Below, in pieces: positions 1-64,000 of a DNA stretch of 64,000 nucleotides (positions are counted from its first letter, which is position 1; each line of letters opens with the position of its first letter). This stretch comes from Rhodobacter sp. Lineage in GTDB: Bacteria; Pseudomonadota; Alphaproteobacteria; Rhodobacterales; Rhodobacteraceae. The notes under the pieces are model-generated. The model was not told the DNA's origin. It did no database searches and was given only the letters and a program-made list of their open reading frames with translations. Both the position numbers and the translations under genes were made by a program. The stretch spans positions 1 to 64,000 of the forward strand of contig JASJDP010000025.1 of NCBI GenBank assembly GCA_030065095.1. Direction: 5' to 3'.

Positions 1-839
1 TCGCCCTGGTCGATGCGGTTGCCGTCCTTGTCGAGGATGCGGCCATAGTCCGCGTCCATAAAGGCGTAGGATCCGCATTGAAGCTCATTGTAGACGCCCG
101 AGTTCGACTCGAAATAGTAACTGCCGGTGCCACCGCCGCCGACGATGTCGCAGTCCAGCCCCTCGGCCTTCAGCGTGTCCACGGCGTCCTTCACCATCGC
201 GACCGCCGTTTCGATCTTTTCCTTCCGGTCGTTGTAGTCGTCCATGTGCTGCATCGCGCCCTGGTAGGCCTGGATGCCGGCGAATTTCAGCCCCGGCGCC
301 GCATCGATCGCCTTGGCGATCTCGACCACTTCCGGGGTCGTGGTCACGCCGCAACGGCCTGCGCCGCAGTCGATTTCGACCAGACATTCGATCTCGGTGC
401 CATGCTCGACCGCCGCCGCCGAAAGATCGCCCACGTTGGCGGGATCGTCCACGCAGCAGATCGTGCGGGCACCCAGCTTCGGCATCCGCGCCAGCCGGTC
501 GATCTTGGCCGGGTCGCGGACCTGGTTCGAGACCAGCACGTCCTTGATGCCGCCGCGGGCAAAAACCTCGGCCTCGCTGACCTTCTGACAGCAGACACCG
601 ACAGCCCCGCCAAGGTCCATCTGAAGCTTGGCGACATCCACCGACTTGTGCATCTTGCCGTGCACCCGGTGACGCATCCCATGCGCCGCGGCGTAATCGC
701 CCATTTTCTTGACGTTGCGCTCCAGCGCGTCGAGGTCCAGCACCAGGCACGGCGTCTGGATATCCGCCTCATCCATGCCGGGCAGTGCAGGGACGTCGTA
801 GCCGACCTCGAGGTCGTTGAAATTCACCATGTCTTTCAT
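1..839 (-). CDS. bhcC: beta-hydroxyaspartate aldolase BhcC (3' end beyond window)
   Basis: PLP-dependent aldolase of the D-threonine aldolase / alanine-racemase-N fold. In the beta-hydroxyaspartate cycle it joins glycine and glyoxylate to erythro-beta-hydroxyaspartate. 279 codons are visible from ATG 837-839 and the frame is open to the left edge. Seen: an N-terminal DIQTPCLVLDLDALERN segment, then HRVHGKMHKS, whose Lys is the expected Schiff-base residue of this fold, then VEIDCGAGRCG and a glycine-rich DIVGGGGTGSY near the end. A GAGGGG Shine-Dalgarno stretch precedes the ATG, and the gap from the bhcB stop is only 12 nt, so it is the third gene of a bhcABC operon. The family alone would also fit a D-threonine aldolase; the neighbours bhcA, bhcB and bhcR make BhcC much more likely. 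The reductase gene bhcD would be expected just beyond position 1. Confidence 0.9.
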   Translation of the reverse strand, partial: MKDMVNFNDLEVGYDVPALPGMDEADIQTPCLVLDLDALERNVKKMGDYAAAHGMRHRVHGKMHKSVDVAKLQMDLGGAVGVCCQKVSEAEVFARGGIKDVLVSNQVRDPAKIDRLARMPKLGARTICCVDDPANVGDLSAAAVEHGTEIECLVEIDCGAGRCGVTTTPEVVEIAKAIDAAPGLKFAGIQAYQGAMQHMDDYNDRKEKIETAVAMVKDAVDTLKAEGLDCDIVGGGGTGSYYFESNSGVYNELQCGSYAFMDADYGRILDKDGNRIDQG

Positions 840-851
840 GACTTTATCCCC

Positions 852-1820
852 TCAGCTCTTCATCCATGGCAGCTTGTCGAGGTCGACATTGCCGCCGGTC
901 ACGATCACGCCGACCCGCTTGCCCGCGAACCGGTCCCTGTTCTTCAGGATGGTGGCCAGCGGCACCGCGCAGCTGGGCTCCATCACGATCTTCATCCGCT
1001 GCCAGGTCAGCTTCATCGCGTCGACGATTTCCTCTTCGCTGGCCGTCAGGATATCGGTCACGTAGTTCGACACGAAATGCCAGGTCAGTTCCTTCAGCGG
1101 AACCTTCAGCCCGTCCGCGATGGTCTGCGGCGCATCGTCGGCGATGATGCGGCCCGCCTTGAAACTGCGATAGGCGTCGTCGGCCTGCTCGGGCTCGGCC
1201 GCGATGATGTCGATCCCCGGCGCGGCGTGGCTCAGCGTCAGGCAGGTGCCGGAAATCATGCCGCCGCCGCCGATCGGCGCGATCATGATGTCGAGATCCT
1301 CGACCTGATCGAGAAGCTCGCGCGAACAGGTGGCCTGACCGGCGATCACCCGCGGGTCGTTGTAAGGGTGCACGAATTCGGCCCCGGTCCTGGCCTGGAC
1401 CTCGGCAAAGACCGCTTCGCGCGACGAGGTCGAGGGCTCGCATTCGGTGATGATCCCGCCATAGCCCCGCACCGCTGCCTTCTTGGCCTCGGGCGCCGTG
1501 CGCGGCATCACCACATGGCAGGGAATGCCCCGGCGTCCGGCCGCATAGCTGAGCGACAGCGCGTGGTTGCCGGAGCTGTGGGTCGCGACGCCCTTCTCGG
1601 CCATCGCGTCGGACAGCCCGAACACCGCGTTTGACGCACCGCGCACCTTGAAGGCGCCCGCCTTCTGGAAGTTCTCGCACTTAAAAAACAGCTCGGCGCC
1701 GGTTAGCTCATTGAAATAGCTCGAGGTCAGCACCGGGGTGCGGTGGATGTAGGGGCGGATCCGGTCATGGGCCGCCAGCATGTCGTCATAGGTCGGGAGG
1801 GTCAGGGCCATATCCTTCAT
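852..1820 (-). CDS. bhcB: beta-hydroxyaspartate dehydratase BhcB
   Basis: Fold-type II PLP enzyme of the serine/threonine dehydratase family, 322 aa. In the beta-hydroxyaspartate cycle it removes water from erythro-beta-hydroxyaspartate to give iminosuccinate. Seen: KAGAFKVRG with the PLP Lys at about residue 58, the substrate loop SSGNHALS, the phosphate-binding glycine loop PIGGGGMISG, and EPSCAVPLA near the C terminus. Length is typical of a single-domain dehydratase without an ACT regulatory domain. Start choice: ATG 1818-1820 has GGAG 8 nt upstream. A GTG at 1827-1829 overlaps the bhcA stop but has the GGAG directly against it, so it is less likely. The start region repeats the Met-Lys-Asp-Met word also found at the bhcC start. 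Without context it could be called threonine dehydratase. Confidence 0.92.
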   Translation of the reverse strand: MKDMALTLPTYDDMLAAHDRIRPYIHRTPVLTSSYFNELTGAELFFKCENFQKAGAFKVRGASNAVFGLSDAMAEKGVATHSSGNHALSLSYAAGRRGIPCHVVMPRTAPEAKKAAVRGYGGIITECEPSTSSREAVFAEVQARTGAEFVHPYNDPRVIAGQATCSRELLDQVEDLDIMIAPIGGGGMISGTCLTLSHAAPGIDIIAAEPEQADDAYRSFKAGRIIADDAPQTIADGLKVPLKELTWHFVSNYVTDILTASEEEIVDAMKLTWQRMKIVMEPSCAVPLATILKNRDRFAGKRVGVIVTGGNVDLDKLPWMKS

Positions 1821-1825
1821 GTCTT

Positions 1826-3013
1826 TCACTCCGCTGCCAGCGCCGCCGCGCCGGTCCCGTGCCGATAGTAATCCTGCGCTGCGGCCACGCCCGAACCGAG
1901 CTGGACCGGCAGGCCCAGGTCAGCCATCGCCATCTCTGCGGTCGCGATGCCGGACAGGGCCATGACATCGGTCATCGCGCCCAGATGCCCGATGCGGAAC
2001 ACCTTGCCCGCGACCTCTCCCAGTCCCACGCCAAAGGCGACGTCATAGCGGTCGGCGGCATGGGTCACGATATCGGTCGCATTGAACCCTTCGGGCGTCA
2101 GGATCGCCGTCACCGTGTCCGAGTAGAGATCGGGCGACTGGGCGCAGGGCCGCATCCCCCAGGCGAACACGGCCCGGCGGACGCCTTCCGCAATGCGGTG
2201 GTGGCGGGCAAAGACCGCGTCAAGCCCTTCATCCAGCAACATATCCGTGGCCAGTTTCAACCCGTTCAGCAGGCCGACGGCGGGGGTGTAGGGGTAGCCG
2301 CCCGAGGCATAGCTTTTCAGCATGTCGCGAAAGTCGAAAAAGGTGCGGTGCAGCGTCGCCGACGCCGACGCTGCCAAGGCTTTGGGGCTGACGCCGACGA
2401 TGGCCAGGCCGGCCGGCAGCATGAAGCCCTTTTGCGAGCCGGTCACGGCGACATCAACGCCCCATTCGTCCATCCGGAAATCCATCGAGCCGATGGAACT
2501 GACGCCGTCCACCAGGAAAAGCGCGGGGTGGCCGGCTGCGTCTATCGCCTTGCGGATGCCGGCGATGTCACTGCGGACGCCGGTGGCCGTTTCATTGTGC
2601 GTCGCCAGCACGGCTTTGATTTCATGGGTCTTGTCGGCCGTCAAAACCTGGAGGTATTGGTCGACCGGACAGCCTGCTCCCCATGGCGCTTCGATGATCT
2701 GAACGTCCAGCCCGTGGCGCTGGCACAGGTCGATCCAGCGATGGCTGAACATGCCGTGCCGCGCGGCCAGCACCTTGTCACCGGGCGATAGCGTGTTGGA
2801 AATCGCCGCCTCCCAGCCGCCCGTGCCGGATGCGGGGAAGATGACGATCTCGGCCTTCGTCGTCTTGAGCACCTGCTTCACACCTGCCACGGCAGGGCCG
2901 AAGATATCGGCGAAGGCAGACGAGCGGTGGTCCAGCGTGGCCATATCGCAAGCCTTGCGGATCGCGTCCGGCATGTTTGTGGGTCCGGGAATGAATACCG
3001 GGTTCTGGGACAT
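1826..3013 (-). CDS. bhcA: aspartate-glyoxylate aminotransferase BhcA
   Basis: Class V (fold-type I) aminotransferase, 395 aa. In the beta-hydroxyaspartate cycle it transaminates glyoxylate to glycine with aspartate as donor, giving oxaloacetate. Seen: the N-terminal IPGPTNMPDAIR typical of serine-glyoxylate / alanine-glyoxylate aminotransferases, ASGTGGWEAA contacting PLP, LVDGVSSIGS with the cofactor Asp, and TGSQKGFMLPAG with the Schiff-base Lys at about residue 195. The ATG is preceded by GAGGAGG at good spacing. First gene of the leftward bhc operon, divergent from the IclR gene bhcR across a 179-nt AT-rich spacer. By family alone it could be a serine-glyoxylate aminotransferase; the operon settles it. 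Confidence 0.92.
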   Translation of the reverse strand: MSQNPVFIPGPTNMPDAIRKACDMATLDHRSSAFADIFGPAVAGVKQVLKTTKAEIVIFPASGTGGWEAAISNTLSPGDKVLAARHGMFSHRWIDLCQRHGLDVQIIEAPWGAGCPVDQYLQVLTADKTHEIKAVLATHNETATGVRSDIAGIRKAIDAAGHPALFLVDGVSSIGSMDFRMDEWGVDVAVTGSQKGFMLPAGLAIVGVSPKALAASASATLHRTFFDFRDMLKSYASGGYPYTPAVGLLNGLKLATDMLLDEGLDAVFARHHRIAEGVRRAVFAWGMRPCAQSPDLYSDTVTAILTPEGFNATDIVTHAADRYDVAFGVGLGEVAGKVFRIGHLGAMTDVMALSGIATAEMAMADLGLPVQLGSGVAAAQDYYRHGTGAAALAAE

Positions 3014-3070
3014 CGCCGCCTCCTCATCGGTGTCGATGCGGTTGGATAGCCTTGTGCGGAGCTACATGCA

Positions 3071-3110
3071 ATTTTTTCGAATTATTTTTTCATAATGCGG
3101 AAAATTCATC
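3071..3110. promoter_or_regulatory. AT-rich repeat/palindrome block in the bhcA-bhcR spacer
   Basis: The divergent spacer carries repeated TTTTTTC words at 3072-3078 and 3085-3091, and again at 3138-3144. An ATTAT...ATAAT inverted repeat lies at about 3081-3095. It stands out from the GC-rich surroundings and lies about 60-100 bases upstream of bhcA. Likely promoter plus IclR-type operator for the bhc operon; the exact site is inferred. Confidence 0.45.
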
Positions 3111-3158
3111 TTTATCAATATCCATCAACCAGTTAGGTTTTTTCACGATATGATTTTG

Positions 3159-3176
3159 TTTTTCGGAATCGAAAAA
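3159..3176. promoter_or_regulatory. candidate BhcR operator (perfect inverted repeat)
   Basis: TTTTTCG-GAAT-CGAAAAA is a perfect 7-bp inverted repeat with a 4-nt centre, 16 nt before the bhcR start. IclR-family regulators bind short AT-rich palindromes and often repress their own gene, so this is a candidate autoregulatory site. The assignment to BhcR is inferred from position. Confidence 0.5.
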
Positions 3177-3192
3177 AGGGGGCGGACACAGC

Positions 3193-4020
3193 ATGGCGGG
3201 AAAGCCAAATCGCCAACGGGGCCGGCCCAAGGCGTTCCACGACAAGACCGAACAGAACACAATCCAGTCGCTGGATCGGGCGATGAACGTCCTGCAGGCG
3301 CTGGCCGCGCACGAGGGGATCTCGCTCAGCCAGCTCTCCGACACCATGGAGCAATCCCCCGCCACGCTCTACCGGGTGCTGACAACTCTCGCACAGCACA
3401 GGATCGCCGAGTTCGATGAGGCCGCTCAGCTTTGGCACGTTGGAAGTGGCGCGTTTTCAATAGGGTCCGCGTTTCTGCGCCGCACCTCGGTGGTCGAACG
3501 CGCCCGCCCCGTCCTGCGGCAGCTGATGCAGGACACCGGCGAGACGGCGAATCTCGGCGTGGAGAGCGGCGAGCAGGTGATGTTCGTCAGCCAGGTCGAA
3601 ACCCATGCCACCATCCGCGCCTTCTTTCCGCCCGGCACCCTGTCGCCGATGCATGCCAGTGGTATCGGCAAGGCGCTGCTGGCCTTTTTCCCTGAGGATA
3701 GGCTTCGGAAATGGCTGCGGAATCATACACTTGAGCGCTTCACCGGCACCACCATCGTGGCCGAACCCGCGCTGCTGGCAGAGCTGCGCTACATCCGCGC
3801 ACGGGGGATCGCCATCGACAACGAGGAACGCAGCAGCGGCATGCGCTGCGTCGCGGCGCCGGTGTTCAACGTCTTCGCGGAACCGGTCGCGGGCCTGTCG
3901 GTCTCGGGTCCGGTCAGCCGGATGGACGACGCCACGGTGGCCCGGTTCGGCGGGCTGGTGCGCGACGCGGCGGCGCGGCTGTCAGAGGCCGTCGGGGGCC
4001 GGAAGCCGCAATCGGAATAG
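3193..4020 (+). CDS. bhcR: IclR-family regulator of the bhc cluster BhcR
   Basis: Transcription regulator, 275 aa, with an N-terminal winged helix-turn-helix (about residues 20-85; ALAAHEGISLSQLSDTMEQSPATLYRVLTTL region) and a C-terminal IclR effector domain (about 90-260; the SPMHASGIGKALLAF and AAPVFNVFAEPVAGLSVSGP segments are hallmarks). BhcR homologues sense glyoxylate and control bhcABCD; the divergent position next to bhcA is the usual arrangement. ATG 3193 follows a GGGGGCGG stretch. A highly basic first 15 residues precedes the HTH. Assignment as BhcR rests on family and synteny. Confidence 0.9.
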   Translation: MAGKPNRQRGRPKAFHDKTEQNTIQSLDRAMNVLQALAAHEGISLSQLSDTMEQSPATLYRVLTTLAQHRIAEFDEAAQLWHVGSGAFSIGSAFLRRTSVVERARPVLRQLMQDTGETANLGVESGEQVMFVSQVETHATIRAFFPPGTLSPMHASGIGKALLAFFPEDRLRKWLRNHTLERFTGTTIVAEPALLAELRYIRARGIAIDNEERSSGMRCVAAPVFNVFAEPVAGLSVSGPVSRMDDATVARFGGLVRDAAARLSEAVGGRKPQSE

Positions 4021-61023: not shown

Positions 61024-61416
61024 TCAGTTTTCGTCCATATGCGACTTGCGGAACGCGCCCGGCAGCAGTTCGGCCACCGTCGCCGTCGCCACTGCACCGG
61101 CCGTCGTCGCCATTGTCACAATTGCATCCGGCCCCGCGAATTCCGCCAGCTTCTGGCGGCATCCGCCGCAGGGCGACACCGGTTCGGGGCTCTCGGCGAT
61201 CACCGCCACCTCGGCAATCTCGGTTTCGCCTGCGGCGACCATCGCGGCGATGGCCCCGGCCTCGGCGCAGGTGCCTTCGGGATAGGCCGCGTTTTCCACG
61301 TTGCACCCGGCATGGACATGGCCTGCTTTCGTGCGCAGCGCCGCGCCGACCTTAAACCCCGAATAGGGCGCATAGGCGTTTTTTCGGATCTCTCTAGCGG
61401 CATCGAGCAACGACAT
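61024..61416 (-). CDS. cdd: cytidine deaminase
   Basis: 130 aa tetrameric-type cytidine deaminase. Seen: YAPYSGFKVGAALRTKAG, the catalytic NVENAAYPEGTCAEAGAI (zinc Cys and Glu), and the second zinc pair PCGGCRQKLAEF. Converts cytidine to uridine, feeding deoA and upp. ATG 61414-61416 is taken; a GTG two codons earlier (61422) is also possible, with GGAG 4 nt before it. First gene of the operon. Confidence 0.95.
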   Translation of the reverse strand: MSLLDAAREIRKNAYAPYSGFKVGAALRTKAGHVHAGCNVENAAYPEGTCAEAGAIAAMVAAGETEIAEVAVIAESPEPVSPCGGCRQKLAEFAGPDAIVTMATTAGAVATATVAELLPGAFRKSHMDEN

Positions 61417-61558
61417 CGGCACACATCTCCACGAGTCATCCCCAGACTGCGGCGCGGCGCGGGCCGATGCAAGGGGCGGCGGACCGCGCCTATCCAGACG
61501 GACAGGCCACTGCCAAGGTCGTCCAACGGCATTTCAGAAAAACGAGGGATTCCAAACC

Positions 61559-62725
61559 ATGCTTAGATTTGTTCCGTCCATTGTCGCCTTGTCCGTGCTG
61601 TGCGCGCCCACGCTTCACGCCCAGCAGACCGATCCGTCCAGCCCGCAGACCGAACGGCTGCGCGTGACGAACATGTGCGGCTACGAGATCTGGGTCGAGC
61701 AGGATTTCATTCACACGGTCCCGGGCGCGCCGATCGTGGTCAAGCTGCCCGACGGCAAATCCTATGATTATCCGATCCCGGATGCCGGGATCGCCGCCAC
61801 CCGGTTCTGGGCCAAGAATTCCTGCAACGAGCATGGCTATAACTGCGGCGTCGGCGAAAGCTCTGGCGTGCCAGAGGCGCAAGACAAGGGCTGGCAGACC
61901 AAACAGACCGTCTACGACGCACCGATCGACTCGAAATTCGAAGGGACCTTCGGATGCACCATCACTGGCGGCACCGGCTGCGCCACCAACCCCTCGAACG
62001 GCGAGCCCCTTGATTCCAGCACCTATTGGGATGCCTCCGCCGTCGATGGCTACACCTTCCCGTTCCAGATCAACGTCAAGAACGACGCCAGCGGCAGTTG
62101 CATGACGCAAAGCGACACCCCCAAACTGGTCAAGGAAATCACCTGCGGCAGCCTCGAACCGGAAAATTACTGCGGCAGCAACGATCTCAGCACGAATGGC
62201 AAATACGACACCGTTAACGGGGTCGATGTGACCAGCGTGATGATGAAATACACAGCTTACATGGACGACACCAAGGTCGTCGGCTGTTTCAGCCCCTGCA
62301 CCAAGATGACCTCCGGCTCGTGGAATGGCTGGATGGACAAGCTCGGCGGTCTTCAGCCGGCTTCGCCGGAATCGCAGATGTATTGCTGTCCGACGCCGCC
62401 GGTCAGCTCGGCCGCGTGCCGCGCCGGGCCCGCCGATACCATGCAGTACACCAAGGACGTGCATGAGGTCTGCGACAGCTACGCCTACGCCTACGACGAC
62501 GGTATCGGCCTGGTGAAATGCGACGGGACCGTGCGGTACGAGATGGTGTTCTGCCCCGGCGGCGCCGCGACCGCCCCGCCGCAGACGGCCCAGCGCCCGG
62601 CGAGCCAAGCCTTCTGCAACAGCACCGTCCCCGGCCAGATGTGCCGCGGCGACATCCCCTGCCCGTCGACCGTGGCAGCCTGCGGCGCGAACCCGGAAAT
62701 GTGCCGCTGCCCGTCGAACGGCTGA
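61559..62725 (+). CDS. exported thaumatin-like protein with Cys-rich tail
   Basis: 388 aa. Signal peptide about 1-21 (ending TLHA). Residues about 33-345 match the thaumatin/PR-5 fold: LRVTNMCGYEIWVEQ, TRFWAKNSCNEHGYNCGVGESSG, DASAVDGYTFPFQI, CFSPCTKM, MYCCPTPP, and the C-terminal signature VCDSYAYAYDDGIGLVKCDG...VFCPGG. The core holds exactly 16 cysteines, the number that forms eight disulfides in plant thaumatin-like proteins. A Pro/Ala linker (about 346-356) leads to a 36-residue tail with six more cysteines. Such proteins are common in plants, fungi and animals but rare in bacteria. Secreted or periplasmic; a glucan-binding or antimicrobial role is possible, unproven. Confidence 0.85.
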   Translation: MLRFVPSIVALSVLCAPTLHAQQTDPSSPQTERLRVTNMCGYEIWVEQDFIHTVPGAPIVVKLPDGKSYDYPIPDAGIAATRFWAKNSCNEHGYNCGVGESSGVPEAQDKGWQTKQTVYDAPIDSKFEGTFGCTITGGTGCATNPSNGEPLDSSTYWDASAVDGYTFPFQINVKNDASGSCMTQSDTPKLVKEITCGSLEPENYCGSNDLSTNGKYDTVNGVDVTSVMMKYTAYMDDTKVVGCFSPCTKMTSGSWNGWMDKLGGLQPASPESQMYCCPTPPVSSAACRAGPADTMQYTKDVHEVCDSYAYAYDDGIGLVKCDGTVRYEMVFCPGGAATAPPQTAQRPASQAFCNSTVPGQMCRGDIPCPSTVAACGANPEMCRCPSNG

Positions 62726-62812: not shown

Positions 62813-62832
62813 TTAGTTTAACGTTAAACTAA
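62813..62832. promoter_or_regulatory. perfect 20-bp palindrome upstream of maeB
   Basis: TTAGTTTAACGTTAAACTAA is fully self-complementary over 20 bp, AT-rich in a GC-rich setting, 25 nt before the maeB start. Placed to act as a repressor operator overlapping the maeB promoter/leader. The regulator is unknown. Confidence 0.6.
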
Positions 62833-62857: not shown

Positions 62858-64000
62858 GTGAACGACCAACGCCAGGAAACCTTCCGCCAGACCGCGCTGA
62901 CCTATCACGAGACACCGAAACCCGGCAAACTCGAGATCCGCGCCACCAAGCCGCTGGCCAACGGGCGTGACCTGGCGCTGGCCTACTCTCCCGGCGTCGC
63001 CGAGGCCTGTCTGGAGATCAAGGCCGACCCGCAGGCCGCAAGCCGTTATACGGCCAAGGCAAATCTGGTTGCGGTGGTCTCCAACGGGACCGCCGTCCTC
63101 GGCCTCGGCAACATCGGCGGGTTGGCCTCCAAGCCGGTGATGGAGGGCAAGGCCGTCCTGTTCAAGAAATTCGCCAATATCGATTGTTTCGACATCGAAC
63201 TGAACGAATCCGACCCCGAGAAAGTCGCAGACATCGTCTGCGCGCTGGAGCCCACCTTTGGCGCCATCAACCTCGAAGACATCAAGGCGCCGGACTGTTT
63301 CATCGTCGAAAAGCTGTGCCGCGAGCGGATGAACATCCCCGTTTTCCACGACGACCAGCACGGCACCGCCATCGTCGTCGGCGCCGCCGCCACCAACGCG
63401 CTGCACGTGGCGGGGAAGCGGTTCGAGGATATCAAGGTCGTATCGACCGGCGGCGGCGCGGCGGGGATCGCTTGCCTCAACATGCTGCTGAAGCTGGGCG
63501 TGAGACGGGAAAATGTCTGGCTGGTCGATCTGCATGGGCTGATTCACGAAGGCCGCACCGAGGACATGACCGAGCAAAAGGCCTGCTACGCGCAACCGGG
63601 CAGTGCACGGACGCTCGACGACGTCATCGAAAACGCCGACCTGTTTCTCGGCCTGTCGGGCCCCAACGTGCTGAAACCCGACATGGTCAGGAAGATGGCC
63701 GACCGCCCGATCATCTTCGCGCTGGCCAATCCCAATCCGGAAATCCAGCCCGAAGACGCCCGCGCCGCAGCGCCGGACGCGATCATTGCCACCGGCCGGT
63801 CCGACTATCCCAATCAGGTCAACAACGTCCTGTGCTTTCCCTTCATTTTCCGCGGTGCGCTGGACGCCGGCGCGACCGAGATCAACGACGACATGCAGCT
63901 TGCCTGCATCGACGGCATCGCCGCGCTGGCGCGCGCCACGACCAGCGCCGAGGCCGCCGCCGCCTACAAGGGTGAACAGCTCAGCTTCGGCGCCGAATAT
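62858..64000 (+). CDS. maeB: NADP-dependent malic enzyme (3' end beyond window)
   Basis: Oxidatively decarboxylates malate to pyruvate. 381 codons visible, open to the right edge. Seen: [37 protein letters not shown] (Tyr/Lys active site), [60 protein letters not shown] (metal-binding Asp pair), and the Rossmann region [14 protein letters not shown]. The malic domain without a long N-terminal extension matches the MaeB class, whose C terminus usually carries a phosphotransacetylase-like domain not visible here. GTG 62858 start with AAAGG upstream; no in-frame ATG is near. With ppsA it links C4 acids made by the bhc cycle to pyruvate/PEP. Confidence 0.9.

Follow-up and report, generated by a model that had tools for sequence, protein, structure and literature searches.

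The window, a 64,000-nucleotide stretch of a Rhodobacter sp. contig (JASJDP010000025.1, assembly GCA_030065095.1), contains an intact, host-like gene (61559..62725, + strand) for a thaumatin-like protein (TLP) of 388 amino acids, which has the cleft residues of typical TLPs, an unusual cysteine layout, a six-cysteine tail and, among the relatives found, its nearest kin in Legionellaceae. Almost all discussion of TLPs treats them as proteins of eukaryotic defence. The window protein is read here, tentatively and slightly short of an even chance, as the product of a single, horizontally acquired gene, which would be secreted and would bind a glycan, namely beta-1,3-glucan, in its acidic cleft.

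Fold, acidic cleft and cysteines of the window protein

PF00314 (Thaumatin) was the sole Pfam family matched by the window protein (E 1.1e-10, 42 bits against a cut-off of 27.4); the PHROGs and NCBIfam models gave no match. The direct sequence match to plant thaumatins of the PDB is weak (8e-4), and becomes clear by way of relatives, reaching 7e-10 with a Comamonas protein and 2e-23 with the viral protein L090. Pfam, the alignment with the cherry TLP 2AHN and relatives, and the structure matches place the domain at approximately residues 33-333 (61655..62557, + strand). An AlphaFold model built from 11 sequences is of low-to-moderate confidence (mean predicted local distance difference test score, pLDDT, 56; predicted template modelling score, pTM, 0.59), its first 80 or so mature residues being good, the remainder weak and the tail unreliable; an earlier model with 4 alignment rows was discarded as too poor (mean pLDDT 40). 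Foldseek found 27 matches to the model at E<=0.001, all of them thaumatin-type (best 5.7e-10) and one bacterial (7P22), while in VIA-align thaumatin-like proteins scored Z 10-11.5, with NP24 at 11.5 (196 residues, root mean square deviation 3.6) and the Amycolatopsis TLP 7P22 at 10.1. The profile match thus places the protein in the family, and the model indicates that it probably has the thaumatin fold. GH64 beta-1,3-glucanases were matched more weakly by structure (Z 8.0-8.7; 3GD0 Z 8.7). That the window protein is itself a beta-1,3-glucanase, like these enzymes and some plant TLPs, is very unlikely: PF16483 (GH64) did not match it, and its relatives stay below the cut-off of 27 bits for that family, two viral and one Legionella protein scoring 11-14.5.

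The R-E-D-D-D cleft residues that characterize typical TLPs are all present in the alignment, as R82, E128, D158, D163 and D313/D314, where the fifth Asp is either D313 or D314 and E128 was matched to the plant Glu via L090, as MAFFT gapped the plant row there. At the position of D158, Asn is found in seven of the eight Legionella relatives, in the Comamonas protein and in most viral copies.

The cysteine layout was read from a MAFFT alignment of 20 sequences, whose cherry TLP row was taken from printed PDB alignments; the C71/C77 numbering and the plant pairings are those generally known for thaumatin. The domain contains 16 Cys (40, 89, 96, 133, 141, 181, 196, 205, 243, 247, 276, 277, 287, 305, 321 and 332). 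The initial annotation, which had claimed a full 16-cysteine core, was right on the count and wrong on the set: 14 of the 16 occupy plant positions, with C205, one residue off the plant column, counted as the same position, so that the window protein departs from the conserved 16-Cys, eight-disulfide pattern of typical (large) TLP/PR-5 proteins. The plant C71 and C77 positions hold no Cys, the nearest columns being occupied by A107 and W112, and the same pair is missing in seven of the eight Legionella relatives; judged from the sequence, similar Cys are present in L014 and in viral and Comamonas proteins (PCPxxGC, DCKAGAKDC). The other two cysteines, C133 and C141, bound a lineage-specific insertion (61955..61981, + strand; alignment columns 152 and 164) that follows the cleft E128, where plant thaumatins have neither the insertion nor a Cys. 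C133 is present in 17 of the 20 rows and C141 in 18; both are absent from the plant row and L090, and the Comamonas protein lacks the first. L090 shows the plain plant pattern and most viral rows have both pairs; in the window protein C133-C141 appears to replace C71-C77. These Cys columns are not a product of chance, because they are common to independent relatives at 31-49% identity. The counterparts of C40 and C332 are jointly absent in two viral proteins, L041 and L042, which is what a bond between them would lead one to expect; the pairing in the window protein is a prediction from the alignment.

A Gly/Ala/Pro/Gln linker (residues 334-352; 62558..62614, + strand) leads to the tail (residues 353-388; 62615..62722, + strand), with Cys at 353, 362, 368, 375, 382 and 384. 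An extra six-cysteine module after a Pro/Ala linker, foreign to known thaumatins, had been proposed from the beginning, and this holds for everything searched: no Pfam family matched the tail, and no significant second copy was found in the same genome or among the collected relatives. The C-termini of the relatives consist of repeats of approximately 160-370 residues, or nothing, in Legionella, and of nothing in the viral proteins; the family plan is a conserved head with changeable tails.

Bacterial and phage-borne relatives and the history of the gene

In the phylogenetic tree the window protein is sister to the Legionellaceae clade (support 100/100), within a bacterial and phage set whose members mostly share the insertion and the extra Cys pair, both absent from the plant protein; three gammaproteobacterial proteins and one plant protein lie on long branches, and their order is untrustworthy. 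This agrees with the "little-known bacterial branch" that the initial annotation had offered as one possible origin. The other, acquisition from a eukaryote, is not supported for the immediate source, to which the statement is limited, as tree and alignment took in one plant sequence as sole eukaryote: the closest relatives that the searches returned all come from bacteria or phage contigs. Bacteria are the likeliest donors, judging from the nearest relatives seen. Three deep gammaproteobacterial thaumatin proteins (L016, L017 and L019) carry an extra N-terminal region, and the genes of L016 and L017 have a gene for an outer-membrane-like protein immediately upstream.

A relative is present in 8 of 140 Legionellaceae genomes, at 46-51% identity (45-49% to the window protein over the thaumatin domain), and in a sample of the class to which Legionellaceae belong 5 of 274 genomes were above the Pfam Thaumatin cut-off. 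Samples of the family (296 genomes), class (289), phylum (398) and order (391, by profile) contained no second genome with the gene in searches by single protein or Pfam, which can miss distant copies. Two sub-threshold Pfam matches in genomes of the same family (L003, L004) have in-frame stops and were taken as chance. The plasmid collection gave one match, from Comamonas, and the phage collection no record. Legionellaceae live in amoebae, and their thaumatin-domain proteins have been suggested to act on eukaryotic partners, protist grazers or others; a similar action of the window protein would be in keeping with this kinship: thaumatin is listed among the eukaryotic motifs of five Legionella species (PMC4256840), and L. 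pneumophila legT (lpg1328), which codes for a thaumatin-domain protein, among effectors (PMC2824747). For the window protein such a role is nevertheless improbable, since it and the relatives read have Sec-type signals and not an arrangement for injection, and LegT-GFP was undetectable in yeast in one study (PMC2475511).

Profile and pattern scans of IMG/VR retrieved complete or partial copies on at least 10 distinct contigs of 38-298 kb (L023, L024, L041-L049 and L090), the true viral status being shown for only some of these contigs. Copies with a readable N-terminus carry a lipobox and are therefore lipoprotein-like. On the L023 contig a phage Holliday-junction resolvase and an endolysin are encoded approximately 2.3-3.6 kb from the thaumatin-like gene, and the stretch examined of another contig includes genes for a RuvC-like resolvase and an endolysin-like protein. 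The Asp-Ala-Gly-rich linkers of the viral copies recall Myxococcota lipoproteins, an impression only. It is conceivable, if doubtful, that TLPs represent an old family of bacterial and phage surface proteins that has a disulfide plan peculiar to it and owes part of its movement between distant Proteobacteria to large phages; bacterial thaumatins would then not be simply stray eukaryotic defence genes, and the window gene would be an exported, tail-modified member. The same contigs would suit a protein of the bacterial envelope or surface that has a bacterial or phage structure as its partner, be it exopolysaccharide of the cell itself, peptidoglycan or a receptor for phages, and that phages would spread as a moron or exclusion lipoprotein. 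As an account of the window protein this is rather unlikely: the protein has no lipobox and a complete R-E-D-D-D cleft, no phage genes adjoin it, and its nearest kin, in Legionellaceae, lie outside phage contigs.

The gene is located between a divergent cytidine deaminase gene, cdd (61024..61422, - strand), and the 5' part of a malic enzyme gene which, named by recognition, we take to be maeB (62858..64000, + strand); cdd presumably heads a nucleoside-salvage cluster with deoA, deoB, add and upp, names likewise given by recognition. In the related genomes G003, G010, G012 and G016, a gap of 140-194 bp with no thaumatin-like gene in it separates cdd from maeB, and in G002 the gap is 765 bp with no clear gene inside. 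Because relatives have cdd and maeB adjoining without it, the gene was either gained between the two or lost many times, gain being simpler. Together with the rarity of the gene in the sampled genomes, this speaks for horizontal transfer. G126, of the same genus, gave no thaumatin match, which cannot count as absence, since contig ends fall within cdd and shortly ahead of maeB in that genome. In G005 the gap between cdd and maeB holds another gene (L029 2355-3452, cupin-like by eye), which suggests that the spot is insertion-prone.

Expression, export and proposed function

A Shine-Dalgarno-like GAGGGA (61544..61549, + strand) is found 9 nt 5' of the ATG; promoter and terminator scans found none. 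Antisense open reading frames are present, but the + frame has a ribosome-binding site, a family match and conserved columns, and a chance reading frame was rejected. The G+C content at third codon positions (GC3) is 0.838, against 0.842 in the neighbouring maeB, and base composition gives no sign of a recent or foreign gene. Assembly contamination is unlikely, because GC and GC3 equal those of the adjoining genes and the flanking region keeps its synteny in relatives.

The N-terminus, judged by eye, reads as a type I signal peptide, MLRFVPSIVALSVLCAPTLHA followed by QQ; sequence pattern and hydropathy delimit it as residues 1-22 (61559..61624, + strand), with likely cleavage between LHA and QQ, so that export would be by Sec. 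The mature protein has a calculated mass of 39.0 kDa and a pI of 4.5. Once exported and cut after residue 22, it would fold in the oxidising periplasm with eight disulfides in the domain, C40-C332, C89-C96 and C133-C141 among them, and no more than three in the tail, and would presumably cross the outer membrane. The acidic cleft of this stable glycan-binding protein would then grip a beta-1,3-linked glucan, a function in keeping with the fold and the intact cleft. For a putative Roseobacter-group host, the ligand would most plausibly be a wall or storage glucan of algae, fungi or oomycetes, and the small Cys-rich tail may serve as a further module, for binding or for stability. Several points weigh against glucan binding: ligand or activity evidence is missing for this branch, no carbohydrate-use genes were seen beside the gene, and the model is of the limited confidence given above, with cleft geometry and disulfides read from sequence only. 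Furthermore, the lipoprotein-like character of the relatives carried by phages does not point to an anti-fungal role, and TLPs have many other reported activities.

Elsewhere in the window, the maeB promoter contains a perfect palindrome (62815-62830, AGTTTAACGTTAAACT), the exact core of which occurs also in G126 and G003, with near forms in several relatives; it is likely a repressor-type operator. Positions 1-3973 are 73-75% similar to bhcA-bhcR on Rhodobacterales plasmids, matches from which the placement of the host in the Roseobacter group was deduced. The bhcA-bhcR genes belong to the beta-hydroxyaspartate cycle, used for growth on glycolate, and their likeness here is compatible with, but no proof of, a host living on algal products.

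Comparison with known thaumatin-like proteins

The plant PR-5/TLP proteins, represented by cherry Pru av 2 (2AHN), share with the window protein the Pfam family, the predicted fold, the R-E-D-D-D residues, 14 of 16 Cys and probably secretion, which the putative signal peptide of the window protein would direct; they differ in that identity is 31% and the window protein lacks C71/C77, while it has the C133/C141 insertion, longer loops and the Cys-rich tail. The Legionella thaumatin proteins (L. impletisoli L005, among others) are closer, sharing the C133-C141 insertion and a Sec-type N-terminus and mostly lacking C71/C77; however, their tails are beta-type repeats, absent in L015, in place of the six-Cys tail, and seven of the eight have Asn for D158. 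L005-L015 were compared as sequences, and their identity with the genes of PMC4256840 is not assumed.

Among other bacterial proteins, the Amycolatopsis rifamycinica TLP 7P22 is a solved structure matched by the window model, but it is an actinomycete protein not reached by sequence search. The "thaumatin family protein" on a Comamonas endophytica plasmid (WP_231043898.1) is 38% identical to the window domain, yet it keeps the C71/C77-like Cys, ends differently and has Asn at D158. GH64 beta-1,3-glucanases (3GD0, 7VTK) have a related fold by structure comparison and are larger enzymes, the window sequence lying below the family cut-off.

A literature search on bacterial thaumatins returned nothing beyond Legionella. 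The Legionella thaumatin domains (PMC4256840, PMC2824747) and the solved Amycolatopsis TLP were already known. What is new, within the reach of the searches, is the occurrence in a putative Roseobacter-group bacterium, the predicted exchange of one disulfide for another, the tail, and the lipoprotein-like relatives on phage contigs. Taken alone, the gene described here is a rare singleton with a putative function. If bacterial and phage TLPs form a coherent branch with alternative disulfides, they would provide natural variants for asking which ligand the cleft takes, and the direction of transfer among bacteria, phages and eukaryotes could be tested on them.
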